DNA from: Odontesthes bonariensis
Taxonomy: Eukaryota > Chordata > Actinopteri > Atheriniformes > Atherinopsidae
Assembly: GCF_027942865.1 (NCBI RefSeq)
Contig: NC_134529.1
Location: forward strand, 27,402,760 to 27,466,759
Length of the DNA: 64,000 bases
Reading direction: 5' to 3'
Part shown: piece after piece, positions 6,599 through 29,708 of the stretch
Layout: the number at the start of each line of letters is the position of its first letter
Position numbering within the stretch: position 1 is the stretch's first letter
The notes under the pieces: model-generated
What the model saw: only the letters and a program-made list of their open reading frames with translations
Database searches by the model: none
Told to the model about the DNA's origin: nothing
Position numbers and translations under genes: made by a program

Positions 6599-6670
6599 GG
6601 GGGTATAGCTCAGTGGTAGAGCATTTGACTGCAGATCAAGAGGTCCTCAGTTCAAATCTGGGTGCCCCCT
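6599..6670 (+). tRNA. tRNA-Cys: tRNA-Cys(GCA), unit 5, plus copy
   Basis: Complete 72-nt body; anticodon GCA at 6631-6633. Confidence 0.93.
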
Positions 6671-7829
6671 ATAATTATGACACTATCAGGTTAGTTATCT
6701 TCTCAATTCTTAAAGGCATTGAGAAAACTTTCTAATTTCTGAGGAAAAGACAAATGTGGTGTTTAAAGCAAACATATTAAACATGCTTAACAGTGGGTTT
6801 ATGTTGGTAGTACTAAAGTTGAGAAGTAATCAATGTATCTCAAGGCAGACTGTACAGGATATTACACCATGGACTAGCATGCAACTTCACTTCACATCCA
6901 TTAAAATATTGCAAAGCAACCTTTATCTGTGGACATAGCAAAGTTAGTTGTCCCATTTGTCTGGGAATTCTCTTTTCTGATAATGTGAATTTCAAGAATG
7001 AGTAATATGCATTGAGTACTTATATATATATATATATATATTAATATGTGTACATTTTTCTATTAGCAATTTTGGGAAGTTAACAATAGCAGTTTCAAAG
7101 ATCAGTTAATTGTTAACTCTCATCACCACAACTTGGCATGCAAGAGAACCAACTCCAAAAGCCCATCTGCCACAAAATTGTAAGGAAGATTTAAACTTTT
7201 TCTGTATATCACATATTAAACCTAGCCTGGGAATTCCCATGCTGCTTTGCGCGCGATTTCATTCCCACTGCAAAGGCAGCTTGGAAACCACTGCCCTTAT
7301 TTTTGCCTGAGTTAGGGAACCAATCACAGGACGGGGGGGCAGCAAGACGATGACGACGTCTATGCGCGACACCGAAGCTTGTAGAGTGTTAATCAAATAT
7401 GGCAGCGGACAAAACGTTAGCGTTCGATGCAGCCTTAAAAAGTGTTTTAAGTAGCTTAGAACGCAAGTTTACTTTTAAAAAAGAGCAACGTTTGGCGTTG
7501 AAAGATTTCATTGCCAAGAAGGATGTATTTGCTCTACCATCATCTTCTCATACACAGTAAAGCGTCTTCTTCTTCCTCGTCGAATTTCTGTCGCTCTACA
7601 TACGTCATCTGGTATAAGTGATACAATTGGCTATGAATCGCGCACAAAGCAGCATGGGAAGAACCAGACGCCATTTGATAGACATTCGTAGCCCCCAATA
7701 AACGGCTCTAGGCATTCGTAAATCACGCCTCAAATACGAGAAAATGCACATCTAGTTCCCAGACCACCATCTCAACGAGATGTGGACGCGTCAGCCAGGC
7801 TATATTAAACCTACAATCCTTGGAAAAGC

Positions 7830-7896
7830 AGGGGGCACTCAGATTTGAACTGAGGACCTCTTGATCTGCAGTCAAATGCTCTACCACTGAGCTATA
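7830..7896 (-). pseudogene. Truncated tRNA-Cys, unit 6, minus copy
   Basis: The 66-bp deletion removes the first five G residues of the tRNA together with its 5' flank. The 3' acceptor strand CCCCC now faces unrelated bases, so the acceptor stem cannot form. The T4 terminator and the rest of the body are intact. Confidence 0.93.
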
Positions 7897-7959
7897 TTGA
7901 CCATCATGTTTCTGATGCCAACACAAAACATGTCATTGATAGAATATGTGTAATTATTG

Positions 7960-8031
7960 GGGGGTATAGCTCAGTGGTAGAGCATTTGACTGCAGATCAA
8001 GAGGTCCTCAGTTCAAATCTGGGTGCCCCCT
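7960..8031 (+). tRNA. tRNA-Cys: tRNA-Cys(GCA), unit 6, plus copy
   Basis: Complete. Its partner is truncated, leaving only 63 bp to the broken minus copy. Confidence 0.93.
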
Positions 8032-8379
8032 ATAATTATGACACTATCAGGTTACTTATCTTCTCAATTCTTAAAGGCATTGAGAAAACTTTCTGATTTC
8101 TGAGGAAAAGACAAATGTGGTGTTTAAAGCAAACATATTAAACATGCTTAACAGTGGGTTTATGTTGGTAGTACTAAAGTTGAGAAGTAATCAATGTATC
8201 TCAAGGCAGACTGTACAGGATATTACACCATGGACTAGCATGCAACTTCACTTCACATCCATTAAAATATTGCAAAGCAACCTTTATCTGTGGACATAGC
8301 AAAGTTAGTTGTCCCATTTGTCTGGGAATTCTCTTTTCTGATAATGTGAATTTCAAGAATGAGTAATATGCATTGAGTA

Positions 8380-8423
<44 letters not shown>

Positions 8424-9206
8424 TATGTGTACATTTTTCTATTAGCAATTTTGGGAAGTTAACAATAGCAGTTTCAAAGATCAGTTAATTGTTAACTCTC
8501 ATCACCACAACTTGGCATGCAAGAGAACCAACTCCAAAAGCCCATCTGCCACAAAATTGTAAGGAAGATTTAAACTTTTTCTGTATATCACATATTAAAC
8601 CTAGCCTGGGAATTCCCATGCTGCTTTGCGCGCGATTTCATTCCCACTGCAAAGGCAGCTTGGAAACCACTGCCCTTATTTTTGCCTGAGTTAGGGAACC
8701 AATCACAGAACGGGGGTCAGCAAGACGATGACGACGTCTATGCGCGACACCGAAGCTTGTAGAGTGTTAATCCAACATGGCAGCGGACACAAGTTACCGT
8801 TCGATGCAGCCTTAGAAAGTGTTTTAAGTAGCTTAGAACGCAAGTTTACTTTTAAAAAAGAGCAACGTTTGGCGTTGAAAGATTTCATTGCCAAGAAGGA
8901 TGTATTTGCTCTACCATCGTCTTCTCATACACAGTAAAGCGTCTTCTTCTTCCTCGTCGAATTTCTGTCGCTCTACATACGTCATCTGGTATAAGTGATA
9001 CAATTGGCTATGAATCGCGCACAAAGCAGCATGGGAAGAACCAGACGCCATTTGATAGACATTCGTAGCGCCCAATAAACGGCTCTAGGCATTCGTAAAC
9101 CACGCCTCAAATACGAGAAAATGCACATCTAGTTCCCAGACCACCATCTCATCGAGATCTGGACGCGTCAGCCAGACTATATTAAACCTACAATCCTTGG
9201 AAAAGC

Positions 9207-9278
9207 AGGGGGCACTCAGATTTGAACTGAGGACCTCTTGATCTGCAGTCAAATGCTCTACCACTGAGCTATACCCCC
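9207..9278 (-). tRNA. tRNA-Cys: tRNA-Cys(GCA), unit 7, minus copy
   Basis: Complete; T4 terminator adjacent. Confidence 0.94.
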
Positions 9279-9402
9279 CTGTATGTAGTTTCTGTCAAAT
9301 ACTTTTTAGTAAAAGTTCCAATTCCATATGGCAGAAGCATTGACCATCATATTTCCGATGCCAACACAAAACATGTCATTGATAGAATATGTGTAATTAT
9401 TG

Positions 9403-9474
9403 GGGGGTATAGCTCAGTGGTAGAGCATTTGACTGCAGATCAAGAGGTCCTCAGTTCAAATCTGGGTGCCCCCT
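9403..9474 (+). tRNA. tRNA-Cys: tRNA-Cys(GCA), unit 7, plus copy
   Basis: Complete 72-nt body in an A unit; anticodon GCA at 9435-9437. Confidence 0.93.
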
Positions 9475-9822
9475 ATAATTATGACACTATCAGGTTAGTT
9501 ATCTTCTCAATTCTTAAAGGCATTGAGAAAACTTTCTGATTTCTGAGGAAAAGACAAATGTGGTGTTTAAAGCAAACATATTAAACATGCTTAACAGTGG
9601 GTTTATGTTGGTAGTACTAAAGTTGAGAAGTAATCAATGTATCTCAAGGCAGACTGTACAGGATATTACACCATGGACTAGCATGCAACTTCACTTCACA
9701 TCCATTAAAATATTGCAAAGCAACCTTTATCTGTGGACATAGCAAAGTTAGTTGTCCCATTTGTCTGGGAATTCTCTTTTCTGATAATGTGAATTTCAAG
9801 AATGAGTAATATGCATTGAGTA

Positions 9823-9860
<38 letters not shown>

Positions 9861-10645
9861 TATGTGTACATTTTTCTATTAGCAATTTTGGGAAGTTAAC
9901 AATAGCAGTTTCAAAGATCAGTTAATTGTTAACTCTCATCACCACAACTTGGCATGCAAGAGAACCAACTCCAAAAGCCCATCTGCCACAAAATTGTAAG
10001 GAAGATTTAAACTTTTTCTGTATATCACATATTAAACCTAGCCTGGGAATTCCCATGCTGCTTTGCGCGCGATTTCATTCCCACTGCAAAGGCAGCTTGG
10101 AAACCACTGCCCTTATTTTTGCCTGAGTTAGGGAACCAATCACAGGACGGGGGGGCAGCAAGACGATGACGACGTCTATGCGCGACACCGAAGCTTGTAG
10201 AGTGTTAATCAAATATGGCAGCGGACAAAACGTTAGCGTTCGATGCAGCCTTAAAAAGTGTTTTAAGTAGCTTAGAACGCAAGTTTACTTTTAAAAAAGA
10301 GCAACGTTTGGCGTTGAAAGATTTCATTGCCAAGAAGGATGTATTTGCTCTTCCATCGTCTTCTCATACACAGTAATGCGTCTTCTTCTTCCTCGTCGAA
10401 TTTCTGTCGCTCTACATAGGCCATCTGGTATAAGTGATACAATTGGCTATGAATCGCGCGCAAAGCAGCATGGGAAGAACAGGACGCCATTTGATAGACA
10501 TTCGTAGCCCCCAATAAACGGCTCTAGGCATTCGTAAACCACGCCTCAAATATGAGAAAATGCACATCTAGTTCCCAGACCACCATCCCATCGAGATGTG
10601 GACGCGTCAGCCAGGCTATATTAAACCTACAATCCTTGGAAAAGC

Positions 10646-10717
10646 AGGGGGCACTCAGATTTGAACTGAGGACCTCTTGATCTGCAGTCAAATGCTCTAC
10701 CACTGAGCTATACCCCC
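10646..10717 (-). tRNA. tRNA-Cys: tRNA-Cys(GCA), unit 8, minus copy
   Basis: Complete; T4 terminator adjacent. Confidence 0.94.
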
Positions 10718-10841
10718 CTGTATGTAGTTTTTGTCAAATACTTATTAGTAAAAGTTACAATTCCATATGGCAGAAGCATTGACCATCATGTTTCCGATGC
10801 CAACACAAAACATGTCATTGATAGAATATGTGTAATTATTG

Positions 10842-10913
10842 GGGGGTATAGCTCAGTGGTAGAGCATTTGACTGCAGATCAAGAGGTCCTCAGTTCAAAT
10901 CTGGGTGCCCCCT
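10842..10913 (+). tRNA. tRNA-Cys: tRNA-Cys(GCA), unit 8, plus copy
   Basis: Complete; anticodon GCA at 10874-10876. Confidence 0.93.
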
Positions 10914-12072
10914 ATAATTATGACACTATCAGGTTAGTTATCTTCTCAATTCTTAAAGGCATTGAGAAAACTTTCTAATTTCTGAGGAAAAGACAAATGT
11001 GGTGTTTAAAGCAAACATATTAAACATGCTTAACAGTGGGTTTATGTTGGTAGTACTAAAGTTGAGAAGTAATCAATGTATCTCAAGGCAGACTGTACAG
11101 GATATTACACCATGGACTAGCATGCAACTTCACTTCACATCCATTAAAATATTGCAAAGCAACCTTTATCTGTGGACATAGCAAAGTTAGTTGTCCCATT
11201 TGTCTGGGAATTCTCTTTTCTGATAATGTGAATTTCAAGAATGAGTAATATGCATTGAGTACTTATATATATATATATATATATTAATATGTGTACATTT
11301 TTCTATTAGCAATTTTGGGAAGTTAACAATAGCAGTTTCAAAGATCAGTTAATTGTTAACTCTCATCACCACAACTTGGCATGCAAGAGAACCAACTCCA
11401 AAAGCCCATCTGCCACAAAATTGTAAGGAAGATTTAAACTTTTTCTGTATATCACATATTAAACCTAGCCTGGGAATTCCCATGCTGCTTTGCGCGCGAT
11501 TTCATTCCCACTGCAAAGGCAGCTTGGAAACCACTGCCCTTATTTTTGCCTGAGTTAGGGAACCAATCACAGGACGGGGGGGCAGCAAGACGATGACGAC
11601 GTCTATGCGCGACACCGAAGCTTGTAGAGTGTTAATCAAATATGGCAGCGGACAAAACGTTAGCGTTCGATGCAGCCTTAAAAAGTGTTTTAAGTAGCTT
11701 AGAACGCAAGTTTACTTTTAAAAAAGAGCAACGTTTGGCGTTGAAAGATTTCATTGCCAAGAAGGATGTATTTGCTCTTCCATCGTCTTCTCATACACAG
11801 TAATGCGTCTTCTTCTTCCTCGTCGAATTTCTGTCGCTCTACATAGGCCATCTGGTATAAGTGATACAATTGGCTATGAATCGCGCGCAAAGCAGCATGG
11901 GAAGAACAGGACGCCATTTGATAGACATTCGTAGCCCCCAATAAACGGCTCTAGGCATTCGTAAACCACGCCTCAAATATGAGAAAATGCACATCTAGTT
12001 CCCAGACCACCATCCCATCGAGATGTGGACGCGTCAGCCAGGCTATATTAAACCTACAATCCTTGGAAAAGC

Positions 12073-12144
12073 AGGGGGCACTCAGATTTGAACTGAGGAC
12101 CTCTTGATCTGCAGTCAAATGCTCTACCACTGAGCTATACCCCC
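12073..12144 (-). tRNA. tRNA-Cys: tRNA-Cys(GCA), unit 9, minus copy
   Basis: Complete; T4 terminator adjacent. Confidence 0.94.
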
Positions 12145-12268
12145 CTGTATGTAGTTTTTGTCAAATACTTATTAGTAAAAGTTACAATTCCATATGGCAG
12201 AAGCATTGACCATCATGTTTCCGATGCCAACACAAAACATGTCATTGATAGAATATGTGTAATTATTG

Positions 12269-12340
12269 GGGGGTATAGCTCAGTGGTAGAGCATTTGACT
12301 GCAGATCAAGAGGTCCTCAGTTCAAATCTGGGTGCCCCCT
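12269..12340 (+). tRNA. tRNA-Cys: tRNA-Cys(GCA), unit 9, plus copy
   Basis: Complete; anticodon GCA at 12301-12303. Confidence 0.93.
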
Positions 12341-13499
12341 ATAATTATGACACTATCAGGTTAGTTATCTTCTCAATTCTTAAAGGCATTGAGAAAACTT
12401 TCTAATTTCTGAGGAAAAGACAAATGTGGTGTTTAAAGCAAACATATTAAACATGCTTAACAGTGGGTTTATGTTGGTAGTACTAAAGTTGAGAAGTAAT
12501 CAATGTATCTCAAGGCAGACTGTACAGGATATTACACCATGGACTAGCATGCAACTTCACTTCACATCCATTAAAATATTGCAAAGCAACCTTTATCTGT
12601 GGACATAGCAAAGTTAGTTGTCCCATTTGTCTGGGAATTCTCTTTTCTGATAATGTGAATTTCAAGAATGAGTAATATGCATTGAGTACTTATATATATA
12701 TATATATATATTAATATGTGTACATTTTTCTATTAGCAATTTTGGGAAGTTAACAATAGCAGTTTCAAAGATCAGTTAATTGTTAACTCTCATCACCACA
12801 ACTTGGCATGCAAGAGAACCAACTCCAAAAGCCCATCTGCCACAAAATTGTAAGGAAGATTTAAACTTTTTCTGTATATCACATATTAAACCTAGCCTGG
12901 GAATTCCCATGCTGCTTTGCGCGCGATTTCATTCCCACTGCAAAGGCAGCTTGGAAACCACTGCCCTTATTTTTGCCTGAGTTAGGGAACCAATCACAGG
13001 ACGGGGGGGCAGCAAGACGATGACGACGTCTATGCGCGACACCGAAGCTTGTAGAGTGTTAATCAAATATGGCAGCGGACAAAACGTTAGCGTTCGATGC
13101 AGCCTTAAAAAGTGTTTTAAGTAGCTTAGAACGCAAGTTTACTTTTAAAAAAGAGCAACGTTTGGCGTTGAAAGATTTCATTGCCAAGAAGGATGTATTT
13201 GCTCTTCCATCGTCTTCTCATACACAGTAATGCGTCTTCTTCTTCCTCGTCGAATTTCTGTCGCTCTACATAGGCCATCTGGTATAAGTGATACAATTGG
13301 CTATGAATCGCGCGCAAAGCAGCATGGGAAGAACAGGACGCCATTTGATAGACATTCGTAGCCCCCAATAAACGGCTCTAGGCATTCGTAAACCACGCCT
13401 CAAATATGAGAAAATGCACATCTAGTTCCCAGACCACCATCCCATCGAGATGTGGACGCGTCAGCCAGGCTATATTAAACCTACAATCCTTGGAAAAGC

Positions 13500-13571
13500 A
13501 GGGGGCACTCAGATTTGAACTGAGGACCTCTTGATCTGCAGTCAAATGCTCTACCACTGAGCTATACCCCC
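13500..13571 (-). tRNA. tRNA-Cys: tRNA-Cys(GCA), unit 10, minus copy
   Basis: Complete; T4 terminator adjacent. Confidence 0.94.
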
Positions 13572-13695
13572 CTGTATGTAGTTTTTGTCAAATACTTATT
13601 AGTAAAAGTTACAATTCCATATGGCAGAAGCATTGACCATCATGTTTCCGATGCCAACACAAAACATGTCATTGATAGAATATGTGTAATTATTG

Positions 13696-13767
13696 GGGGG
13701 TATAGCTCAGTGGTAGAGCATTTGACTGCAGATCAAGAGGTCCTCAGTTCAAATCTGGGTGCCCCCT
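13696..13767 (+). tRNA. tRNA-Cys: tRNA-Cys(GCA), unit 10, plus copy
   Basis: Complete; anticodon GCA at 13728-13730. Confidence 0.93.
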
Positions 13768-14926
13768 ATAATTATGACACTATCAGGTTAGTTATCTTCT
13801 CAATTCTTAAAGGCATTGAGAAAACTTTCTAATTTCTGAGGAAAAGACAAATGTGGTGTTTAAAGCAAACATATTAAACATGCTTAACAGTGGGTTTATG
13901 TTGGTAGTACTAAAGTTGAGAAGTAATCAATGTATCTCAAGGCAGACTGTACAGGATATTACACCATGGACTAGCATGCAACTTCACTTCACATCCATTA
14001 AAATATTGCAAAGCAACCTTTATCTGTGGACATAGCAAAGTTAGTTGTCCCATTTGTCTGGGAATTCTCTTTTCTGATAATGTGAATTTCAAGAATGAGT
14101 AATATGCATTGAGTACTTATATATATATATATATATATTAATATGTGTACATTTTTCTATTAGCAATTTTGGGAAGTTAACAATAGCAGTTTCAAAGATC
14201 AGTTAATTGTTAACTCTCATCACCACAACTTGGCATGCAAGAGAACCAACTCCAAAAGCCCATCTGCCACAAAATTGTAAGGAAGATTTAAACTTTTTCT
14301 GTATATCACATATTAAACCTAGCCTGGGAATTCCCATGCTGCTTTGCGCGCGATTTCATTCCCACTGCAAAGGCAGCTTGGAAACCACTGCCCTTATTTT
14401 TGCCTGAGTTAGGGAACCAATCACAGGACGGGGGGGCAGCAAGACGATGACGACGTCTATGCGCGACACCGAAGCTTGTAGAGTGTTAATCAAATATGGC
14501 AGCGGACAAAACGTTAGCGTTCGATGCAGCCTTAAAAAGTGTTTTAAGTAGCTTAGAACGCAAGTTTACTTTTAAAAAAGAGCAACGTTTGGCGTTGAAA
14601 GATTTCATTGCCAAGAAGGATGTATTTGCTCTACCATCATCTTCTCATACACAGTAAAGCGTCTTCTTCTTCCTCGTCGAATTTCTGTCGCTCTACATAC
14701 GTCATCTGGTATAAGTGATACAATTGGCTATGAATCGCGCACAAAGCAGCATGGGAAGAACCAGACGCCATTTGATAGACATTCGTAGCACCCAATAAAC
14801 GGCTCTAGGCATTCGTAAATCACGCCTCAAATACGAGAAAATGCACATCTAGTTCCCAGACCACCATCTCAACGAGATGTGGACGCGTCAGCCAGGCTAT
14901 ATTAAACCTACAATCCTTGGAAAAGC

Positions 14927-14993
14927 AGGGGGCACTCAGATTTGAACTGAGGACCTCTTGATCTGCAGTCAAATGCTCTACCACTGAGCTATA
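14927..14993 (-). pseudogene. Truncated tRNA-Cys, unit 11, minus copy
   Basis: Same 66-bp deletion junction as in unit 6; five 5' acceptor bases missing. Confidence 0.93.
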
Positions 14994-15056
14994 TTGACCA
15001 TCATGTTTCTGATGCCAACACAAAACATGTCATTGATAGAATATGTGTAATTATTG

Positions 15057-15128
15057 GGGGGTATAGCTCAGTGGTAGAGCATTTGACTGCAGATCAAGAG
15101 GTCCTCAGTTCAAATCTGGGTGCCCCCT
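15057..15128 (+). tRNA. tRNA-Cys: tRNA-Cys(GCA), unit 11, plus copy
   Basis: Complete; faces a truncated partner 63 bp away. Confidence 0.93.
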
Positions 15129-15476
15129 ATAATTATGACACTATCAGGTTACTTATCTTCTCAATTCTTAAAGGCATTGAGAAAACTTTCTGATTTCTGA
15201 GGAAAAGACAAATGTGGTGTTTAAAGCAAACATATTAAACATGCTTAACAGTGGGTTTATGTTGGTAGTACTAAAGTTGAGAAGTAATCAATGTATCTCA
15301 AGGCAGACTGTACAGGATATTACACCATGGACTAGCATGCAACTTCACTTCACATCCATTAAAATATTGCAAAGCAACCTTTATCTGTGGACATAGCAAA
15401 GTTAGTTGTCCCATTTGTCTGGGAATTCTCTTTTCTGATAATGTGAATTTCAAGAATGAGTAATATGCATTGAGTA

Positions 15477-15518
<42 letters not shown>

Positions 15519-16301
15519 TATGTGTACATTTTTCTATTAGCAATTTTGGGAAGTTAACAATAGCAGTTTCAAAGATCAGTTAATTGTTAACTCTCATCAC
15601 CACAACTTGGCATGCAAGAGAACCAACTCCAAAAGCCCATCTGCCACAAAATTGTAAGGAAGATTTAAACTTTTTCTGTATATCACATATTAAACCTAGC
15701 CTGGGAATTCCCATGCTGCTTTGCGCGCGATTTCATTCCCACTGCAAAGGCAGCTTGGAAACCACTGCCCTTATTTTTGCCTGAGTTAGGGAACCAATCA
15801 CAGAACGGGGGTCAGCAAGACGATGACGACGTCTATGCGCGACACCGAAGCTTGTAGAGTGTTAATCCAACATGGCAGCGGACACAAGTTACCGTTCGAT
15901 GCAGCCTTAGAAAGTGTTTTAAGTAGCTTAGAACGCAAGTTTACTTTTAAAAAAGAGCAACGTTTGGCGTTGAAAGATTTCATTGCCAAGAAGGATGTAT
16001 TTGCTCTACCATCGTCTTCTCATACACAGTAAAGCGTCTTCTTCTTCCTCGTCGAATTTCTGTCGCTCTACATACGTCATCTGGTATAAGTGATACAATT
16101 GGCTATGAATCGCGCACAAAGCAGCATGGGAAGAACCAGACGCCATTTGATAGACATTCGTAGCGCCCAATAAACGGCTCTAGGCATTCGTAAACCACGC
16201 CTCAAATACGAGAAAATGCACATCTAGTTCCCAGACCACCATCTCATCGAGATCTGGACGCGTCAGCCAGACTATATTAAACCTACAATCCTTGGAAAAG
16301 C

Positions 16302-16373
16302 AGGGGGCACTCAGATTTGAACTGAGGACCTCTTGATCTGCAGTCAAATGCTCTACCACTGAGCTATACCCCC
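16302..16373 (-). tRNA. tRNA-Cys: tRNA-Cys(GCA), unit 12, minus copy
   Basis: Complete; T4 terminator adjacent; one private base change in its 5' flank. Confidence 0.94.
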
Positions 16374-16497
16374 CTGTTTGTAGTTTCTGTCAAATACTTT
16401 TTAGTAAAAGTTCCAATTCCATATGGCAGAAGCATTGACCATCATATTTCCGATGCCAACACAAAACATGTCATTGATAGAATATGTGTAATTATTG

Positions 16498-16569
16498 GGG
16501 GGTATAGCTCAGTGGTAGAGCATTTGACTGCAGATCAAGAGGTCCTCAGTTCAAATCTGGGTGCCCCCT
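16498..16569 (+). tRNA. tRNA-Cys: tRNA-Cys(GCA), unit 12, plus copy
   Basis: Complete; anticodon GCA at 16530-16532. Confidence 0.93.
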
Positions 16570-17728
16570 ATAATTATGACACTATCAGGTTAGTTATCTT
16601 CTCAATTCTTAAAGGCATTGAGAAAACTTTCTGATTTCTGAGGAAAAGACAAATGTGGTGTTTAAAGCAAACATATTAAACATGCTTAACAGTGGGTTTA
16701 TGTTGGTAGTACTAAAGTTGAGAAGTAATCAATGTATCTCAAGGCAGACTGTACAGGATATTACACCATGGACTAGCATGCAACTTCACTTCACATCCAT
16801 TAAAATATTGCAAAGCAACCTTTATCTGTGGACATAGCAAAGTTAGTTGTCCCATTTGTCTGGGAATTCTCTTTTCTGATAATGTGAATTTCAAGAATGA
16901 GTAATATGCATTGAGTACTTATATATATATATATATATATTAATATGTGTACATTTTTCTATTAGCAATTTTGGGAAGTTAACAATAGCAGTTTCAAAGA
17001 TCAGTTAATTGTTAACTCTCATCACCACAACTTGGCATGCAAGAGAACCAACTCCAAAAGCCCATCTGCCACAAAATTGTAAGGAAGATTTAAACTTTTT
17101 CTGTATATCACATATTAAACCTAGCCTGGGAATTCCCATGCTGCTTTGCGCGCGATTTCATTCCCACTGCAAAGGCAGCTTGGAAACCACTGCCCTTATT
17201 TTTGCCTGAGTTAGGGAACCAATCACAGGACGGGGGGGCAGCAAGACGATGACGACGTCTATGCGCGACACCGAAGCTTGTAGAGTGTTAATCAAATATG
17301 GCAGCGGACAAAACGTTAGCGTTCGATGCAGCCTTAAAAAGTGTTTTAAGTAGCTTAGAACGCAAGTTTACTTTTAAAAAAGAGCAACGTTTGGCGTTGA
17401 AAGATTTCATTGCCAAGAAGGATGTATTTGCTCTTCCATCGTCTTCTCATACACAGTAATGCGTCTTCTTCTTCCTCGTCGAATTTCTGTCGCTCTACAT
17501 AGGCCATCTGGTATAAGTGATACAATTGGCTATGAATCGCGCGCAAAGCAGCATGGGAAGAACAGGACGCCATTTGATAGACATTCGTAGCCCCCAATAA
17601 ACGGCTCTAGGCATTCGTAAACCACGCCTCAAATATGAGAAAATGCACATCTAGTTCCCAGACCACCATCTCATCGAGATGTGGACGCGTCAGCCAGGCT
17701 ATATTAAACCTACAATCCTTGGAAAAGC

Positions 17729-17800
17729 AGGGGGCACTCAGATTTGAACTGAGGACCTCTTGATCTGCAGTCAAATGCTCTACCACTGAGCTATACCCCC
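17729..17800 (-). tRNA. tRNA-Cys: tRNA-Cys(GCA), unit 13, minus copy
   Basis: Complete; T4 terminator adjacent. Confidence 0.94.
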
Positions 17801-17924
17801 CTGTATGTAGTTTTTGTCAAATACTTATTAGTAAAAGTTACAATTCCATATGGCAGAAGCATTGACCATCATGTTTCCGATGCCAACACAAAACATGTCA
17901 TTGATAGAATATGTGTAATTATTG

Positions 17925-17996
17925 GGGGGTATAGCTCAGTGGTAGAGCATTTGACTGCAGATCAAGAGGTCCTCAGTTCAAATCTGGGTGCCCCCT
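17925..17996 (+). tRNA. tRNA-Cys: tRNA-Cys(GCA), unit 13, plus copy
   Basis: Complete; anticodon GCA at 17957-17959. Confidence 0.93.
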
Positions 17997-19153: not shown

Positions 19154-19225
19154 AGGGGGCACTCAGATTTGAACTGAGGACCTCTTGATCTGCAGTCAAA
19201 TGCTCTACCACTGAGCTATACCCCC
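19154..19225 (-). tRNA. tRNA-Cys: tRNA-Cys(GCA), unit 14, minus copy
   Basis: Complete; T4 terminator adjacent. Confidence 0.94.
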
Positions 19226-19349
19226 CTGTATGTAGTTTTTGTCAAATACTTATTAGTAAAAGTTACAATTCCATATGGCAGAAGCATTGACCATCATGTT
19301 TCCGATGCCAACACAAAACATGTCATTGATAGAATATGTGTAATTATTG

Positions 19350-19421
19350 GGGGGTATAGCTCAGTGGTAGAGCATTTGACTGCAGATCAAGAGGTCCTCA
19401 GTTCAAATCTGGGTGCCCCCT
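19350..19421 (+). tRNA. tRNA-Cys: tRNA-Cys(GCA), unit 14, plus copy
   Basis: Complete; anticodon GCA at 19382-19384. Confidence 0.93.
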
Positions 19422-20580
19422 ATAATTATGACACTATCAGGTTAGTTATCTTCTCAATTCTTAAAGGCATTGAGAAAACTTTCTAATTTCTGAGGAAAAG
19501 ACAAATGTGGTGTTTAAAGCAAACATATTAAACATGCTTAACAGTGGGTTTATGTTGGTAGTACTAAAGTTGAGAAGTAATCAATGTATCTCAAGGCAGA
19601 CTGTACAGGATATTACACCATGGACTAGCATGCAACTTCACTTCACATCCATTAAAATATTGCAAAGCAACCTTTATCTGTGGACATAGCAAAGTTAGTT
19701 GTCCCATTTGTCTGGGAATTCTCTTTTCTGATAATGTGAATTTCAAGAATGAGTAATATGCATTGAGTACTTATATATATATATATATATATTAATATGT
19801 GTACATTTTTCTATTAGCAATTTTGGGAAGTTAACAATAGCAGTTTCAAAGATCAGTTAATTGTTAACTCTCATCACCACAACTTGGCATGCAAGAGAAC
19901 CAACTCCAAAAGCCCATCTGCCACAAAATTGTAAGGAAGATTTAAACTTTTTCTGTATATCACATATTAAACCTAGCCTGGGAATTCCCATGCTGCTTTG
20001 CGCGCGATTTCATTCCCACTGCAAAGGCAGCTTGGAAACCACTGCCCTTATTTTTGCCTGAGTTAGGGAACCAATCACAGGACGGGGGGGCAGCAAGACG
20101 ATGACGACGTCTATGCGCGACACCGAAGCTTGTAGAGTGTTAATCAAATATGGCAGCGGACAAAACGTTAGCGTTCGATGCAGCCTTAAAAAGTGTTTTA
20201 AGTAGCTTAGAACGCAAGTTTACTTTTAAAAAAGAGCAACGTTTGGCGTTGAAAGATTTCATTGCCAAGAAGGATGTATTTGCTCTTCCATCGTCTTCTC
20301 ATACACAGTAATGCGTCTTCTTCTTCCTCGTCGAATTTCTGTCGCTCTACATAGGCCATCTGGTATAAGTGATACAATTGGCTATGAATCGCGCGCAAAG
20401 CAGCATGGGAAGAACAGGACGCCATTTGATAGACATTCGTAGCCCCCAATAAACGGCTCTAGGCATTCGTAAACCACGCCTCAAATATGAGAAAATGCAC
20501 ATCTAGTTCCCAGACCACCATCTCATCGAGATGTGGACGCGTCAGCCAGGCTATATTAAACCTACAATCCTTGGAAAAGC

Positions 20581-20652
20581 AGGGGGCACTCAGATTTGAA
20601 CTGAGGACCTCTTGATCTGCAGTCAAATGCTCTACCACTGAGCTATACCCCC
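20581..20652 (-). tRNA. tRNA-Cys: tRNA-Cys(GCA), unit 15, minus copy
   Basis: Complete; T4 terminator adjacent. Confidence 0.94.
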
Positions 20653-20776
20653 CTGTATGTAGTTTTTGTCAAATACTTATTAGTAAAAGTTACAATTCCA
20701 TATGGCAGAAGCATTGACCATCATGTTTCCGATGCCAACACAAAACATGTCATTGATAGAATATGTGTAATTATTG

Positions 20777-20848
20777 GGGGGTATAGCTCAGTGGTAGAGC
20801 ATTTGACTGCAGATCAAGAGGTCCTCAGTTCAAATCTGGGTGCCCCCT
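20777..20848 (+). tRNA. tRNA-Cys: tRNA-Cys(GCA), unit 15, plus copy
   Basis: Complete; anticodon GCA at 20809-20811. Confidence 0.93.
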
Positions 20849-22005
20849 ATAATTATGACACTATCAGGTTAGTTATCTTCTCAATTCTTAAAGGCATTGA
20901 GAAAACTTTCTAATTTCTGAGGAAAAGACAAATGTGGTGTTTAAAGCAAACATATTAAACATGCTTAACAGTGGGTTTATGTTGGTAGTACTAAAGTTGA
21001 GAAGTAATCAATGTATCTCAAGGCAGACTGTACAGGATATTACACCATGGACTAGCATGCAACTTCACTTCACATCCATTAAAATATTGCAAAGCAACCT
21101 TTATCTGTGGACATAGCAAAGTTAGTTGTCCCATTTGTCTGGGAATTCTCTTTTCTGATAATGTGAATTTCAAGAATGAGTAATATGCATTGAGTACTTA
21201 TATATATATATATATATATTAATATGTGTACATTTTTCTATTAGCAATTTTGGGAAGTTAACAATAGCAGTTTCAAAGATCAGTTAATTGTTAACTCTCA
21301 TCACCACAACTTGGCATGCAAGAGAACCAACTCCAAAAGCCCATCTGCCACAAAATTGTAAGGAAGATTTAAACTTTTTCTGTATATCACATATTAAACC
21401 TAGCCTGGGAATTCCCATGCTGCTTTGCGCGCGATTTCATTCCCACTGCAAAGGCAGCTTTGAAACCACTGCCCTTAGTTTTGCCTGAGTTAGGGAACCA
21501 ATCACAGAACGGGGGTCAGCAAGACGATGACGATGTCTATGCGCGTCACCGAAGCTTGTAGAGTGTTAATCCAACATGGCAGCGGACACAAGTTACCGTT
21601 CGATGCAGCCTTAGAAAGTGTTTTAAGTAGCTTAGAACGCAAGTTTACTTTTAAAAAAGAGCAACGTTTGGCGTTGAAAGATTTCATTGCCAAGAAGGAT
21701 GTATTTGCTCTACCATCATCTTCTCATACACAGTAAAGCGTCTTCTTCTTCCTCGTCGAATTTCTGTCGCTCTACATACGTCATCTGGTATAAGTGATAC
21801 AATTGGCTATGAATCGCGCACAAAGCAGCATGGGAAGAACCAGACGCCATTTGATAGACATTCGTAGCACCCAATAAACGGCTCTAGGCATTCGTAAATC
21901 ACGCCTCAAATACGAGAAAATGCACATCTAGTTCCCAGACCACCATCTCAACGAGATGTGGACGCGTCAGCCAGGCTATATTAAACCTACAATCCTTGGA
22001 AAAGC

Positions 22006-22072
22006 AGGGGGCACTCAGATTTGAACTGAGGACCTCTTGATCTGCAGTCAAATGCTCTACCACTGAGCTATA
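22006..22072 (-). pseudogene. Truncated tRNA-Cys, unit 16, minus copy
   Basis: Same deletion junction as units 6 and 11, although the left part of this unit is of a different type. The deletion therefore predates the mosaic. Confidence 0.93.
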
Positions 22073-22135
22073 TTGACCATCATGTTTCTGATGCCAACAC
22101 AAAACATGTCATTGATAGAATATGTGTAATTATTG

Positions 22136-22207
22136 GGGGGTATAGCTCAGTGGTAGAGCATTTGACTGCAGATCAAGAGGTCCTCAGTTCAAATCTGGGT
22201 GCCCCCT
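22136..22207 (+). tRNA. tRNA-Cys: tRNA-Cys(GCA), unit 16, plus copy
   Basis: Complete; faces a truncated partner. Confidence 0.93.
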
Positions 22208-22555
22208 ATAATTATGACACTATCAGGTTACTTATCTTCTCAATTCTTAAAGGCATTGAGAAAACTTTCTGATTTCTGAGGAAAAGACAAATGTGGTGTT
22301 TAAAGCAAACATATTAAACATGCTTAACAGTGGGTTTATGTTGGTAGTACTAAAGTTGAGAAGTAATCAATGTATCTCAAGGCAGACTGTACAGGATATT
22401 ACACCATGGACTAGCATGCAACTTCACTTCACATCCATTAAAATATTGCAAAGCAACCTTTATCTGTGGACATAGCAAAGTTAGTTGTCCCATTTGTCTG
22501 GGAATTCTCTTTTCTGATAATGTGAATTTCAAGAATGAGTAATATGCATTGAGTA

Positions 22556-22599
<44 letters not shown>

Positions 22600-23382
22600 T
22601 ATGTGTACATTTTTCTATTAGCAATTTTGGGAAGTTAACAATAGCAGTTTCAAAGATCAGTTAATTGTTAACTCTCATCACCACAACTTGGCATGCAAGA
22701 GAACCAACTCCAAAAGCCCATCTGCCACAAAATTGTAAGGAAGATTTAAACTTTTTCTGTATATCACATATTAAACCTAGCCTGGGAATTCCCATGCTGC
22801 TTTGCGCGCGATTTCATTCCCACTGCAAAGGCAGCTTGGAAACCACTGCCCTTATTTTTGCCTGAGTTAGGGAACCAATCACAGAACGGGGGTCAGCAAG
22901 ACGATGACGACGTCTATGCGCGACACCGAAGCTTGTAGAGTGTTAATCCAACATGGCAGCGGACACAAGTTACCGTTCGATGCAGCCTTAGAAAGTGTTT
23001 TAAGTAGCTTAGAACGCAAGTTTACTTTTAAAAAAGAGCAACGTTTGGCGTTGAAAGATTTCATTGCCAAGAAGGATGTATTTGCTCTACCATCGTCTTC
23101 TCATACACAGTAAAGCGTCTTCTTCTTCCTCGTCGAATTTCTGTCGCTCTACATACGTCATCTGGTATAAGTGATACAATTGGCTATGAATCGCGCACAA
23201 AGCAGCATGGGAAGAACCAGACGCCATTTGATAGACATTCGTAGCGCCCAATAAACGGCTCTAGGCATTCGTAAACCACGCCTCAAATACGAGAAAATGC
23301 ACATCTAGTTCCCAGACCACCATCTCATCGAGATCTGGACGCGTCAGCCAGACTATATTAAACCTACAATCCTTGGAAAAGC

Positions 23383-23454
23383 AGGGGGCACTCAGATTTG
23401 AACTGAGGACCTCTTGATCTGCAGTCAAATGCTCTACCACTGAGCTATACCCCC
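23383..23454 (-). tRNA. tRNA-Cys: tRNA-Cys(GCA), unit 17, minus copy
   Basis: Complete; T4 terminator adjacent. Confidence 0.94.
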
Positions 23455-23578
23455 CTGTATGTAGTTTCTGTCAAATACTTTTTAGTAAAAGTTCCAATTC
23501 CATATGGCAGAAGCATTGACCATCATATTTCCGATGCCAACACAAAACATGTCATTGATAGAATATGTGTAATTATTG

Positions 23579-23650
23579 GGGGGTATAGCTCAGTGGTAGA
23601 GCATTTGACTGCAGATCAAGAGGTCCTCAGTTCAAATCTGGGTGCCCCCT
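23579..23650 (+). tRNA. tRNA-Cys: tRNA-Cys(GCA), unit 17, plus copy
   Basis: Complete; anticodon GCA at 23611-23613. Confidence 0.93.
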
Positions 23651-23998
23651 ATAATTATGACACTATCAGGTTAGTTATCTTCTCAATTCTTAAAGGCATT
23701 GAGAAAACTTTCTGATTTCTGAGGAAAAGACAAATGTGGTGTTTAAAGCAAACATATTAAACATGCTTAACAGTGGGTTTATGTTGGTAGTACTAAAGTT
23801 GAGAAGTAATCAATGTATCTCAAGGCAGACTGTACAGGATATTACACCATGGACTAGCATGCAACTTCACTTCACATCCATTAAAATATTGCAAAGCAAC
23901 CTTTATCTGTGGACATAGCAAAGTTAGTTGTCCCATTTGTCTGGGAATTCTCTTTTCTGATAATGTGAATTTCAAGAATGAGTAATATGCATTGAGTA

Positions 23999-24038
<40 letters not shown>

Positions 24039-24823
24039 TATGTGTACATTTTTCTATTAGCAATTTTGGGAAGTTAACAATAGCAGTTTCAAAGATCAGT
24101 TAATTGTTAACTCTCATCACCACAACTTGGCATGCAAGAGAACCAACTCCAAAAGCCCATCTGCCACAAAATTGTAAGGAAGATTTAAACTTTTTCTGTA
24201 TATCACATATTAAACCTAGCCTGGGAATTCCCATGCTGCTTTGCGCGCGATTTCATTCCCACTGCAAAGGCAGCTTGGAAACCACTGCCCTTATTTTTGC
24301 CTGAGTTAGGGAACCAATCACAGGACGGGGGGGCAGCAAGACGATGACGACGTCTATGCGCGACACCGAAGCTTGTAGAGTGTTAATCAAATATGGCAGC
24401 GGACAAAACGTTAGCGTTCGATGCAGCCTTAAAAAGTGTTTTAAGTAGCTTAGAACGCAAGTTTACTTTTAAAAAAGAGCAACGTTTGGCGTTGAAAGAT
24501 TTCATTGCCAAGAAGGATGTATTTGCTCTTCCATCGTCTTCTCATACACAGTAATGCGTCTTCTTCTTCCTCGTCGAATTTCTGTCGCTCTACATAGGCC
24601 ATCTGGTATAAGTGATACAATTGGCTATGAATCGCGCGCAAAGCAGCATGGGAAGAACAGGACGCCATTTGATAGACATTCGTAGCCCCCAATAAACGGC
24701 TCTAGGCATTCGTAAACCACGCCTCAAATATGAGAAAATGCACATCTAGTTCCCAGACCACCATCTCATCGAGATGTGGACGCGTCAGCCAGGCTATATT
24801 AAACCTACAATCCTTGGAAAAGC

Positions 24824-24895
24824 AGGGGGCACTCAGATTTGAACTGAGGACCTCTTGATCTGCAGTCAAATGCTCTACCACTGAGCTATACCCCC
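24824..24895 (-). tRNA. tRNA-Cys: tRNA-Cys(GCA), unit 18, minus copy
   Basis: Complete; T4 terminator adjacent. Confidence 0.94.
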
Positions 24896-25019
24896 CTGTA
24901 TGTAGTTTTTGTCAAATACTTATTAGTAAAAGTTACAATTCCATATGGCAGAAGCATTGACCATCATGTTTCCGATGCCAACACAAAACATGTCATTGAT
25001 AGAATATGTGTAATTATTG

Positions 25020-25091
25020 GGGGGTATAGCTCAGTGGTAGAGCATTTGACTGCAGATCAAGAGGTCCTCAGTTCAAATCTGGGTGCCCCCT
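25020..25091 (+). tRNA. tRNA-Cys: tRNA-Cys(GCA), unit 18, plus copy
   Basis: Complete; anticodon GCA at 25052-25054. Confidence 0.93.
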
Positions 25092-26250
25092 ATAATTATG
25101 ACACTATCAGGTTAGTTATCTTCTCAATTCTTAAAGGCATTGAGAAAACTTTCTAATTTCTGAGGAAAAGACAAATGTGGTGTTTAAAGCAAACATATTA
25201 AACATGCTTAACAGTGGGTTTATGTTGGTAGTACTAAAGTTGAGAAGTAATCAATGTATCTCAAGGCAGACTGTACAGGATATTACACCATGGACTAGCA
25301 TGCAACTTCACTTCACATCCATTAAAATATTGCAAAGCAACCTTTATCTGTGGACATAGCAAAGTTAGTTGTCCCATTTGTCTGGGAATTCTCTTTTCTG
25401 ATAATGTGAATTTCAAGAATGAGTAATATTTATTGAGTACTTATATATATATATATATATATTAATATGTGTACATTTTTCTATTAGCAATTTTGGGAAG
25501 TTAACAATAGCAGTTTCAAAGATCAGTTAATTGTTAACTCTCATCACCACAACTTGGCATGCAAGAGAACCAACTCCAAAAGCCCATCTGCCACAAAATT
25601 GTAAGGAAGATTTAAACTTTTTCTGTATATCACATATTAAACCTAGCCTGGGAATTCCCATGCTGCTTTGCGCGCGATTTCATTCCCACTGCAAAGGCAG
25701 CTTGGAAACCACTGCCCTTATTTTTGCCTGAGTTAGGGAACCAATCACAGGACGGGGGGGCAGCAAGACGATGACGACGTCTATGCGCGACACCGAAGCT
25801 TGTAGAGTGTTAATCAAATATGGCAGCGGACAAAACGTTAGCGTTCGATGCAGCCTTAAAAAGTGTTTTAAGTAGCTTAGAACGCAAGTTTACTTTTAAA
25901 AAAGAGCAACGTTTGGCGTTGAAAGATTTCATTGCCAAGAAGGATGTATTTGCTCTTCCATCGTCTTCTCATACACAGTAATGCGTCTTCTTCTTCCTCG
26001 TCGAATTTCTGTCGCTCTACATAGGCCATCTGGTATAAGTGATACAATTGGCTATGAATCGCGCGCAAAGCAGCATGGGAAGAACAGGACGCCATTTGAT
26101 AGACATTCGTAGCCCCCAATAAACGGCTCTAGGCATTCGTAAACCACGCCTCAAATATGAGAAAATGCACATCTAGTTCCCAGACCACCATCTCATCGAG
26201 ATGTGGACGCGTCAGCCAGGCTATATTAAACCTACAATCCTTGGAAAAGC

Positions 26251-26322
26251 AGGGGGCACTCAGATTTGAACTGAGGACCTCTTGATCTGCAGTCAAATGC
26301 TCTACCACTGAGCTATATCCCC
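26251..26322 (-). tRNA. tRNA-Cys: tRNA-Cys(GCA), unit 19, minus copy (acceptor mismatch)
   Basis: Full length, but plus-strand base 26318 is T instead of C. Position 5 of the tRNA is therefore A, opposite C68, one mismatch in the acceptor stem. It may be less efficient or decaying. Confidence 0.85.
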
Positions 26323-26446
26323 CTGTATGTAGTTTTTGTCAAATACTTATTAGTAAAAGTTACAATTCCATATGGCAGAAGCATTGACCATCATGTTTCC
26401 GATGCCAACACAAAACATGTCATTGATAGAATATGTGTAATTATTG

Positions 26447-26518
26447 GGGGGTATAGCTCAGTGGTAGAGCATTTGACTGCAGATCAAGAGGTCCTCAGTT
26501 CAAATCTGGGTGCCCCCT
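26447..26518 (+). tRNA. tRNA-Cys: tRNA-Cys(GCA), unit 19, plus copy
   Basis: Complete; anticodon GCA at 26479-26481. Confidence 0.93.
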
Positions 26519-27677
26519 ATAATTATGACACTATCAGGTTAGTTATCTTCTCAATTCTTAAAGGCATTGAGAAAACTTTCTAATTTCTGAGGAAAAGACA
26601 AATGTGGTGTTTAAAGCAAACATATTAAACATGCTTAACAGTGGGTTTATGTTGGTAGTACTAAAGTTGAGAAGTAATCAATGTATCTCAAGGCAGACTG
26701 TACAGGATATTACACCATGGACTAGCATGCAACTTCACTTCACATCCATTAAAATATTGCAAAGCAACCTTTATCTGTGGACATAGCAAAGTTAGTTGTC
26801 CCATTTGTCTGGGAATTCTCTTTTCTGATAATGTGAATTTCAAGAATGAGTAATATGCATTGAGTACTTATATATATATATATATATATTAATATGTGTA
26901 CATTTTTCTATTAGCAATTTTGGGAAGTTAACAATAGCAGTTTCAAAGATCAGTTAATTGTTAACTCTCATCACCACAACTTGGCATGCAAGAGAACCAA
27001 CTCCAAAAGCCCATCTGCCACAAAATTGTAAGGAAGATTTAAACTTTTTCTGTATATCACATATTAAACCTAGCCTGGGAATTCCCATGCTGCTTTGCGC
27101 GCGATTTCATTCCCACTGCAAAGGCAGCTTGGAAACCACTGCCCTTATTTTTGCCTGAGTTAGGGAACCAATCACAGGACGGGGGGGCAGCAAGACGATG
27201 ACGACGTCTATGCGCGACACCGAAGCTTGTAGAGTGTTAATCAAATATGGCAGCGGACAAAACGTTAGCGTTCGATGCAGCCTTAAAAAGTGTTTTAAGT
27301 AGCTTAGAACGCAAGTTTACTTTTAAAAAAGAGCAACGTTTGGCGTTGAAAGATTTCATTGCCAAGAAGGATGTATTTGCTCTTCCATCGTCTTCTCATA
27401 CACAGTAATGCGTCTTCTTCTTCCTCGTCGAATTTCTGTCGCTCTACATAGGCCATCTGGTATAAGTGATACAATTGGCTATGAATCGCGCGCAAAGCAG
27501 CATGGGAAGAACAGGACGCCATTTGATAGACATTCGTAGCCCCCAATAAACGGCTCTAGGCATTCGTAAACCACGCCTCAAATATGAGAAAATGCACATC
27601 TAGTTCCCAGACCACCATCTCATCGAGATGTGGACGCGTCAGCCAGGCTATATTAAACCTACAATCCTTGGAAAAGC

Positions 27678-27749
27678 AGGGGGCACTCAGATTTGAACTG
27701 AGGACCTCTTGATCTGCAGTCAAATGCTCTACCACTGAGCTATACCCCC
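27678..27749 (-). tRNA. tRNA-Cys: tRNA-Cys(GCA), unit 20, minus copy
   Basis: Complete; T4 terminator adjacent. Confidence 0.94.
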
Positions 27750-27873
27750 CTGTATGTAGTTTTTGTCAAATACTTATTAGTAAAAGTTACAATTCCATAT
27801 GGCAGAAGCATTGACCATCATGTTTCCGATGCCAACACAAAACATGTCATTGATAGAATATGTGTAATTATTG

Positions 27874-27945
27874 GGGGGTATAGCTCAGTGGTAGAGCATT
27901 TGACTGCAGATCAAGAGGTCCTCAGTTCAAATCTGGGTGCCCCCT
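27874..27945 (+). tRNA. tRNA-Cys: tRNA-Cys(GCA), unit 20, plus copy
   Basis: Complete; anticodon GCA at 27906-27908. Confidence 0.93.
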
Positions 27946-29102
27946 ATAATTATGACACTATCAGGTTAGTTATCTTCTCAATTCTTAAAGGCATTGAGAA
28001 AACTTTCTAATTTCTGAGGAAAAGACAAATGTGGTGTTTAAAGCAAACATATTAAACATGCTTAACAGTGGGTTTATGTTGGTAGTACTAAAGTTGAGAA
28101 GTAATCAATGTATCTCAAGGCAGACTGTACAGGATATTACACCATGGACTAGCATGCAACTTCACTTCACATCCATTAAAATATTGCAAAGCAACCTTTA
28201 TCTGTGGACATAGCAAAGTTAGTTGTCCCATTTGTCTGGGAATTCTCTTTTCTGATAATGTGAATTTCAAGAATGAGTAATATGCATTGAGTACTTATAT
28301 ATATATATATATATATTAATATGTGTACATTTTTCTATTAGCAATTTTGGGAAGTTAACAATAGCAGTTTCAAAGATCAGTTAATTGTTAACTCTCATCA
28401 CCACAACTTGGCATGCAAGAGAACCAACTCCAAAAGCCCATCTGCCACAAAATTGTAAGGAAGATTTAAACTTTTTCTGTATATCACATATTAAACCTAG
28501 CCTGGGAATTCCCATGCTGCTTTGCGCGCGATTTCATTCCCACTGCAAAGGCAGCTTGGAAACCACTGCCCTTAGTTTTGCCTGAGTTAGGGAACCAATC
28601 ACAGAACGGGGGTCAGCAAGACGATGACGATGTCTATGCGCGTCACCGAAGCTTGTAGAGTGTTAATCCAACATGGCAGCGGACACAAGTTACCGTTCGA
28701 TGCAGCCTTAGAAAGTGTTTTAAGTAGCTTAGAACGCAAGTTTACTTTTAAAAAAGAGCAACGTTTGGCGTTGAAAGATTTCATTGCCAAGAAGGATGTA
28801 TTTGCTCTACCATCATCTTCTCATACACAGTAAAGCGTCTTCTTCTTCCTCGTCGAATTTCTGTCGCTCTACATACGTCATCTGGTATAAGTGATACAAT
28901 TGGCTATGAATCGCGCACAAAGCAGCATGGGAAGAACCAGACGCCATTTGATAGACATTCGTAGCACCCAATAAACGGCTCTAGGCATTCGTAAATCACG
29001 CCTCAAATACGAGAAAATGCACATCTAGTTCCCAGACCACCATCTCAACGAGATGTGGACGCGTCAGCCAGGCTATATTAAACCTACAATCCTTGGAAAA
29101 GC

Positions 29103-29169: not shown

Positions 29170-29232
29170 TTGACCATCATGTTTCTGATGCCAACACAAA
29201 ACATGTCATTGATAGAATATGTGTAATTATTG

Positions 29233-29652: not shown

Positions 29653-29708
<56 letters not shown>

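Follow-up and report, generated by a model that had tools for sequence, protein, structure and literature searches.

In a 64,000-nucleotide stretch of the Odontesthes bonariensis genome (contig NC_134529.1; hereafter the window), we found paired tRNA-Cys genes in a tandem array that carries a higher-order repeat, most probably young and formed by out-of-register exchange.

Organization of the array

The window opens inside the array, which occupies positions 1..33839 and is open at the left window edge. It consists of 23 units (u1 to u23), each of about 1.43 kb and each combining two tRNA-Cys(GCA) genes in head-to-head orientation with a MITE-like element and a TA-rich spacer; the sequence of unit u8 has no match in the window beyond 33839. 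In u8, taken here as the example, the MITE-like element lies at 10050..10476 (plus strand) between 25-bp terminal inverted repeats (10050-10074 and 10452-10476). By eye it has no clear target-site duplication, and its 53-aa open frame matched 0 Pfam families, though the frame may resemble the start of RecQ-like helicases. The minus-strand tRNA-Cys gene of u8 (10644..10718) has a TTTT 2 nt 3′ of the Rfam-defined gene end, and the plus-strand gene (10841..10914) has none within 280 nt downstream. The two facing genes make up an inverted repeat (10646..10913) that is predicted to fold, in single-stranded DNA, into a long, near-perfect hairpin of −102 kcal/mol (z = −18.7); the hairpin is about 73 bp in each unit and about 67 bp in the S units defined below. 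A (TA)n tract, of 10 copies in u8 (11264..11283), follows.

The units fall into three types, A, B and S, with mean divergences of 1.19 to 1.85% between types and 0.05 to 0.60% within them; A u7 and B u8, for example, are distinguished by 24 sites, 12 of them inside the MITE-like element. The S units (u6, u11, u16 and u21) share a 66-bp deletion. The TA tract numbers 9-10 copies in B units and 15-25 in the S units and in A units u3, u7 and u17. A unit u12 has 10 copies, a B-like length that breaks the strict pattern by type.

Identity comparison recovered the nested arrangement that had been proposed from the sequence alone, in which the order S-A-B-B-B recurs three times and then starts again with S. 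The repeat is wider than the interval first assigned to it (7179-28453), as A-B-B (u3-u5) stands ahead of the three repeats and S (u21) and an A-like unit (u22) follow them. The A units are u3, u7, u12 and u17, with the A-like u22 as the last in the series, and their spacing is 4, 5, 5 and 5; the leftmost block, A-B-B-S, therefore has four units and is one B short. Counted from A, and all on the plus strand, block I spans 2956..8621 (u3 A, u4 and u5 B, u6 S), block II 8622..15716 (u7 A, u8-u10 B, u11 S), block III 15717..22797 (u12 A, u13-u15 B, u16 S) and block IV 22798..29758 (u17 A, u18-u20 B, u21 S, the last shortened by a deletion beside the TA tract). A five-unit period throughout the array was rejected, given this spacing and the position of u1-u2 outside the pattern.

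To the right of the blocks, u22 (29759..31250, plus strand) differs from A units u3, u7 and u17 by 13 sites and has the longest TA tract. The outermost and most diverged unit, u23 (31251..33839, plus strand), is interrupted by an insertion of about 1.37 kb (31476..32849) with the ends TGTCACG...CACGACA and TTTA on both sides, probably a solo LTR; similarity to the other units stops at the TA tract. We also considered u22 as a single unit of 2.87 kb, which proved to be u22 plus part of u23 with its insertion.

The periods of 7097, 7081 and 7097 bp that had been reported for the repeat are exact if the left terminal inverted repeat of each S unit (7236, 14333, 21414 and 28511) serves as the anchor. 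With the plus-strand or truncated tRNA as the anchor, the second of them becomes 7079, owing to a 2-bp length difference between the anchors; the value of 7081 was examined as a possible error and is correct at the left inverted repeat.

Identity between units and blocks

We compared units at increasing distance along the array (u6-u21, TA tract excluded). The mean number of differing sites was 12.7 at lag 1, 12.5 at lag 4, 1.9 at lag 5, 13.6 at lag 6 and 4.7 at lag 10, so that among lags 1 to 8 identity at lag 5 was by far the highest. None of 20,000 permutations of the unit order reached the lag-5 value, either at lag 5 itself or at any of these eight lags. The sequence-only reading had named neighbours as alike as units five apart as the outcome that would refute it, and array-wide units five apart are the closer. 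Within the B-B-B runs, however, adjacent units are 1.0 site apart on average (6 pairs), exactly as B units at a distance of five are (1.0; 6 pairs), which indicates that smaller steps or local conversion have acted as well.

The three S-A-B-B-B blocks, numbered 1 to 3, differ pairwise by 4, 16 and 18 sites over about 6,585 (0.061%, 0.243% and 0.273%), below the 5% criterion for higher-order repeats. The lowest value is that of blocks 1 and 2 (4 of 6,585 sites), and blocks 2 and 3 owe 11 of their 16 differences to one tract, at S positions 39-194. Such near-identity could have been created by the assembler, had it duplicated one or two real 7.1-kb blocks or joined haplotypes end to end, since the divergence of blocks 1 and 2 is beyond the resolution of short or noisy reads. 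We consider this improbable, because the copies bear private marks (the 11-site S tract, the differences at 528 and 662, those at 1192-1193 in u18 and at 653 in u19, and S-unit TA tracts with lengths of 18, 19 and 25) and because the leftmost block is a unit short of five. These features argue against exact false copying, and with less force against joined haplotypes.

The diverged units at the right edge speak for unequal exchange: u23 is separated from all other units by at least 23 sites, and u22 by at least 12. Two observations count against it. Despite its place at the edge of the repeat, u21 differs from u16 at only one site outside the TA region; and on the left of the blocks, u2 is 10 sites from its nearest unit, about as far as u22, so the right edge is not alone in being diverged.

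Two S units, u6 and u11, are mosaics of B and S that share a switch point, which lies between positions 194 and 292; u16 lacks the B left end. Up to 194, all 10 informative sites of u6 and u11 are in the B state; from 292 on, S states occupy 16 of 16 sites in u11 and 15 of 16 in u6, the exception being a B state at 449 within the S part of u6. A mosaic of this kind would be an expected product of unequal exchange, although a conversion tract could explain it equally well.

The blocks might instead stem from a single burst, by rolling-circle or break-induced replication of a reinserted 7.1-kb circle rather than by repeated unequal exchange, and the 0.061% divergence of blocks 1 and 2 and their intact order are what a burst would leave. 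Yet the similarity between blocks is graded: blocks I and II have the mosaic S in common, with C at 528 in 5 of 5 B units, and blocks III and IV have the non-mosaic S in common, with T at 528 in 5 of 6. Together with the one four-unit block and the local homogenization of B units, this points to several events at different times, and we regard a single burst as rather unlikely.

tRNA-Cys genes

ARAGORN identified 42 tRNA-Cys(GCA) genes in the window with an intact fold and a GCA anticodon, and Rfam 46 tRNA matches. The four additional matches are 5′-truncated copies, one in each S unit, where the 66-bp deletion takes away the 5′ end of one tRNA; they lie on the minus strand at 7836..7896 in u6 (with the deletion junction at the 5′ end), 14933..14993 in u11, 22012..22072 in u16 and 29109..29169 in u21. 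The Rfam scores were 67 to 71.3 bits for the 42 genes and 51.1 bits for the four truncated copies. Inside 7179-28453 there are 27 of the 42 genes and three truncated copies. Each 7.1-kb block thus holds ten tRNA bodies, nine of them intact and one truncated, in agreement with the count of about nine intact genes among ten loci made from the sequence alone.

Scoring TTTT alone as a terminator, we found it 2 nt downstream of 18 of the 19 untruncated minus-strand genes, whereas for all 23 plus-strand genes the first TTTT comes 280 or 302 nt downstream; among the nine intact genes of a block, only the four on the minus strand have one nearby. The tRNA bodies themselves are nearly invariant (identical in 23/23 plus-strand and 17/19 untruncated minus-strand copies), as they would be if selection preserved the block as a whole, whether for the dosage of the tRNA or because it served as a boundary or resembled a centromere in function; the human tRNA array at 1q23.3 is described as binding CTCF (PMC4041453). 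We consider such selection very unlikely. The right part of the unit is about as invariant as the genes, with 6 variable sites in the 341 of the right spacer and 0 in the 138 beyond the TA tract (u1-u22), so that homogenization is enough, and selection on the tRNA is not needed, to account for the low variation. Moreover, every block has one broken gene among its ten, and no TTTT lies near the plus-strand genes.

Formation of the repeat

Taking the order of the types, the identities, the switch point of the mosaics, the four-unit block and the diverged and interrupted right-edge units as they stand in the sequence, we would reconstruct the history of the array as follows. A unit made of the MITE-like element, the facing tRNA-Cys pair and the TA-rich spacer would have been amplified singly, and its copies would then have diverged into the three types, of which S bears the 66-bp deletion that broke one tRNA. 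Out-of-register exchange with an offset of several units, through unequal sister-chromatid or homologous recombination, would have copied A-B-B-B-S whole at least twice, and exchange by one unit would have altered the number of B units and created the B/S mosaic unit. The exchange mechanism, the order of these events and the suggestion that the process may be ongoing are drawn from one sequence. Both the TA tracts and the hairpin formed by each tRNA pair may promote breaks.

We compared this reading with a simple simulation of duplication and deletion, scoring repeats that spanned 16 units or more and had a period between 3 and 8; the parameters were of our choosing and the snapshots are not independent. 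Single-unit steps gave no such repeat in 3,582 snapshots, and mean steps of 3, 5 and 8 units gave 62, 135 and 175 of 3,582, respectively. A period of exactly 5 was rare (4, 5 and 2 of 3,582 for the same steps), which counts against the reading; within the scored range most repeats had a period of 7 or 8. The pattern fits unequal recombination, a mechanism that is itself ordinary.

It had been proposed that the amplification unit has moved from one tRNA pair to the 7.1-kb block, so that copy number changes in steps of about nine intact genes. Blocks have indeed been copied whole, but amplification has not simply moved there: the four-unit block, the homogenized B units and the B/S recombinants indicate exchange at other offsets or conversion, and nine-gene steps are therefore not obligatory. 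A bolder version, which we offer tentatively and think less probable than not, is that the higher-order repeat organizes itself, the facing tRNA genes and TA tracts driving the exchange, and that a single population contains many alleles, which differ both by 7.1-kb nine-gene blocks and by single pairs. If so, the locus would be a living model for the birth of satellite higher-order repeats, with genes as markers.

The pattern points to a way in which an array of tRNA genes could gain many of them at once. The locus is recent enough that individual exchange events can still be recognized in its sequence, in the four-unit block, the recombinant S and the diverged and interrupted edge unit. Should it prove polymorphic, the first steps of higher-order repeat formation could be watched outside centromeres, and tRNA dose would be shown to be able to shift by many genes per step.

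Comparison with known systems

A tandem tRNA repeat is known from Xenopus laevis. Among the matches listed for open-licence PubMed Central, many of them on mitochondrial genomes, none was to a higher-order repeat of tRNA genes. As of 2010, tRNA tandem repeats were described as reported only in Entamoeba histolytica (PMC2888827). Teleosts and Nematostella have tRNA clusters of fifty or more genes; the available part of that account describes no nested repeat in the teleost clusters, and gives the pairs in Danio as nearly all parallel, in contrast to the head-to-head pairs of Odontesthes (PMC2888827).

The closest tRNA counterpart in our comparison is the human 1q23.3 array, with a 7.3-kb unit in 9-43 copies that are 98% identical and change in number block-wise (PMC4041453). 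Both arrays have a multi-kilobase unit with several tRNA genes (7.3 versus 7.1 kb), near-identical copies and amplification by blocks. The available text of that paper does not use the term ‘higher-order', and copy-number variation is demonstrated for the human array, whereas the Odontesthes array is known from one sequence, and five related 1.43-kb units, all carrying a single isoacceptor, make up its 7.1-kb block.

Kilobase-sized monomers also make up the higher-order repeats of human chromosomes 13, 18 and 21, where LTR monomers of about 3.5 kb come six to a block and an LTR6A insertion occurs once per block, much as the 66-bp deletion does here; those repeats are amplified LTR transposons, and tRNA genes go unmentioned in the available text (PMC2588610). 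The NBPF 3mer resembles our array in its gene-borne monomers (1.6 kb, in a 4.8-kb repeat) and in having blocks far more alike than monomers, but it is protein-coding, and its monomers diverge by about 18% and its blocks by about 1.6% (NBPF20), compared with 0 to about 2% and 0.06-0.27% here (PMC9584774). With alpha satellite the array shares nested periods and a closer similarity of same-position monomers across blocks than of neighbours; alpha satellite monomers are, however, 171 bp long, 20-40% diverged and centromeric (PMC9584774, PMC2588610). The likeness to a centromeric satellite drawn in the sequence-only reading thus holds for the topology but not for the divergence of the monomers, 0 to about 2% here, or for the extent, here three full copies and partial ones. 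In the general features of higher-order repeats, the array has ordered, distinct monomers in tandem, and monomers at the same position are the closest, B units excepted. Higher-order repeats of multi-kilobase units and tRNA macrosatellites are each known; here they are combined in one locus.

Organization of the array

The tandem array comprises 23 units (u1–u23, numbered from left to right) of ~1.43 kb each; the left edge of the window falls within it, its left end lying outside, and its right end is at ~33839. Each unit contains two head-to-head tRNA-Cys(GCA) genes with ~122 bp between them, a (TA)n tract in the spacer, and one MITE-like element bounded by 25-bp terminal inverted repeats (in u8, for example, at 10050-10476). 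ARAGORN found 42 tRNA genes in the window and Rfam 46 tRNA matches, four of them truncated, all in units of type S, where a 66-bp deletion removes part of the minus-strand tRNA. The MITE-like element of u8 also holds a 53-aa open frame (10215-10373), with similar sequence in other units; it matched no Pfam family, and may resemble the start of RecQ-like helicases.

Nested period

Unit boundaries were set by reference to the plus-strand tRNA; the units were then aligned and their differing sites tallied with the TA region excluded. The units fall into types A (u3, u7, u12, u17), B (u4, u5, u8–u10, u13–u15, u18–u20) and S (u6, u11, u16, u21). A unit u7 and B unit u8 differ at 24 sites, 23 of which lie in the unit's left half (P ~1e-5 if uniform). 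From u3, and with A taken as the start, the order is A-B-B-S, then A-B-B-B-S three times, then an A-like unit, u22 (13 sites from each of u3, u7 and u17), so that the spacing of A and A-like units is 4, 5, 5, 5. To the left, u1 resembles type A, with 7 sites between it and u3; u2 combines A and B states as a mosaic and differs from the unit closest to it at 10 sites.

The sequence-only reading had named, as a check, whether units five apart are more alike than neighbours, and the identity matrix shows that they are: within u6–u21 the mean number of differing sites was 1.9 at a distance of five units, against 12.7 for neighbours and 12.5 to 19.5 at distances of 2, 3, 4, 6, 7 and 8. None of 20,000 permutations of unit order reached 1.9, either at distance five or at any distance from 1 to 8. 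In other spans the five-unit value was 5.5 (u1–u22), 3.9 (u3–u22) and 2.0 (u6–u20), each again matched by 0 of 20,000 permutations. TA length also agreed best at five units, but is a weaker marker of the period, because 414 of 20,000 permutations were as good for u6–u20 (7 for u1–u21, 32 for u3–u21). The S-A-B-B-B blocks placed by that reading at 7179..28453, with periods of 7097, 7081 and 7097 bp, are exact when taken at the left inverted repeat; measured at the tRNA, the middle period is 7079. We consider it unlikely that the block order was created by an error of assembly.

tRNA genes and terminators

All 23 plus-strand tRNAs are identical across the Rfam-defined gene, as are 17 of the 19 untruncated minus-strand tRNAs to one another; the S-unit deletion replaces the first acceptor-stem bases of the minus gene. 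This low variation does not prove selection: across u1–u22, variable sites are also few in the right spacer (6 of 341) and absent past the TA tract (0 of 138). Of the 19 untruncated minus genes, 18 are followed by TTTT at a distance of 2 nt; for the plus genes (845-33480) the first TTTT is 302 nt downstream in 22 of 23 and 280 nt in the other. Thus, of the nine intact genes per block claimed earlier, every one has an intact tRNA body, but a canonical terminator stands close to only four. Judging from these positions, the plus and minus gene of a pair may be functionally unequal. The minus tRNA of the outermost unit, u23 (33212-33283), matches the plus genes in sequence, suggesting inter-arm conversion or an ancestral state.

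Proposed exchange between units

In the S-A-B-B-B phase, the blocks differ pairwise at 4, 16 and 18 of ~6,585 sites, and 11 of the 16 differences between blocks 2 and 3 lie in a single tract, S positions 39-194. We took as informative the 26 sites where u16, with u21 agreeing, is unlike B unit u8. Both u6 and u11 have the B state at 10 of 10 informative sites up to position 194, and from position 292 on the S state at 15 of 16 (u6) and 16 of 16 (u11). By their site states, then, u6 and u11 are recombinant, B at the left end and S at the right. An exchange of the last B of a block with S would yield such a unit with the loss of one B, and the state of block I (u3–u6), a B/S recombinant with one B fewer, is the outcome expected of it; gene conversion is an alternative to exchange for the mosaic itself. 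After the exchange, block II (u7–u11) would have derived by further exchange inside near-identical B runs, a history of the two blocks that we infer. Neighbouring B units differ at 1.0 site (6 pairs), and so do B units five apart (6 pairs); therefore, single-unit exchange or local conversion also occurred.

We simulated duplication and deletion with bounds and rates of our own choosing, and scored higher-order repeats that spanned 16 or more units with a period of 3 to 8. Single-unit steps and a mean step of 1.5 each gave none in 3,582 snapshots, while mean steps of 2, 3, 5 and 8 gave 12, 62, 135 and 175 of 3,582, snapshots within one run not being independent. Within the scored range the periods were mainly 7 or 8, with period 5 in 4, 5 and 2 snapshots at mean steps of 3, 5 and 8. 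Within this simulation, multi-unit steps are needed and a special five-unit rule is not.

The facing tRNA genes form an inverted repeat whose arms are 73 bp long at 98.6%, or 67 bp long where the unit is of type S. Folded as single-stranded DNA, the u8 pair gives one long hairpin of -102 kcal/mol, against -29.3 kcal/mol (s.d. 3.9) for its shuffles. Fragile elements include hairpins and TA tracts, and here both may drive exchange.

Array edge and right flank

The most diverged unit is u23, at least 23 sites from every other over 1,121-1,187 columns, with a 1.37-kb insertion with LTR-like ends inside it. Unit u22 is separated from every other by 12 or more sites, and u21 has lost sequence beside the TA tract, being elsewhere one site from u16.

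The flank is rich in transposons. An LTR retroelement on the minus strand (40933-44981), which we take to be Gypsy-type, carries pieces of integrase, reverse transcriptase/RNase H and DUF7041, and similar 23-bp tandem repeats at 40933-40986 and 44928-44981. Remains of a retrovirus-like element occupy 45773-56000, where 52509-52844 matches the C-terminal part of an MLV-type integrase. Frames 45773-46423 and 55642-55968 have translations largely in common and could belong to its two LTRs. A 92-bp tandem repeat lies at 48636-48930 (3.2 copies, 98% matches).

Comparison with known systems

Arrays kept alike by unequal exchange usually have a decayed edge and a uniform interior; edge decay here fits u22–u23, the right end alone being in view. 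None of the listed matches among open-licence papers described a tRNA array as a higher-order repeat. Tandem tRNA genes in a multi-kb unit that varies widely in copy number have been described (PMC4041453), and large tRNA clusters are known in teleosts (PMC2888827). Outside alpha satellite, nested repeats of kb-sized units are already known: LTR arrays form six-unit blocks, each block with one marker insertion (PMC2588610), and NBPF 3mers are a second case (PMC9584774).
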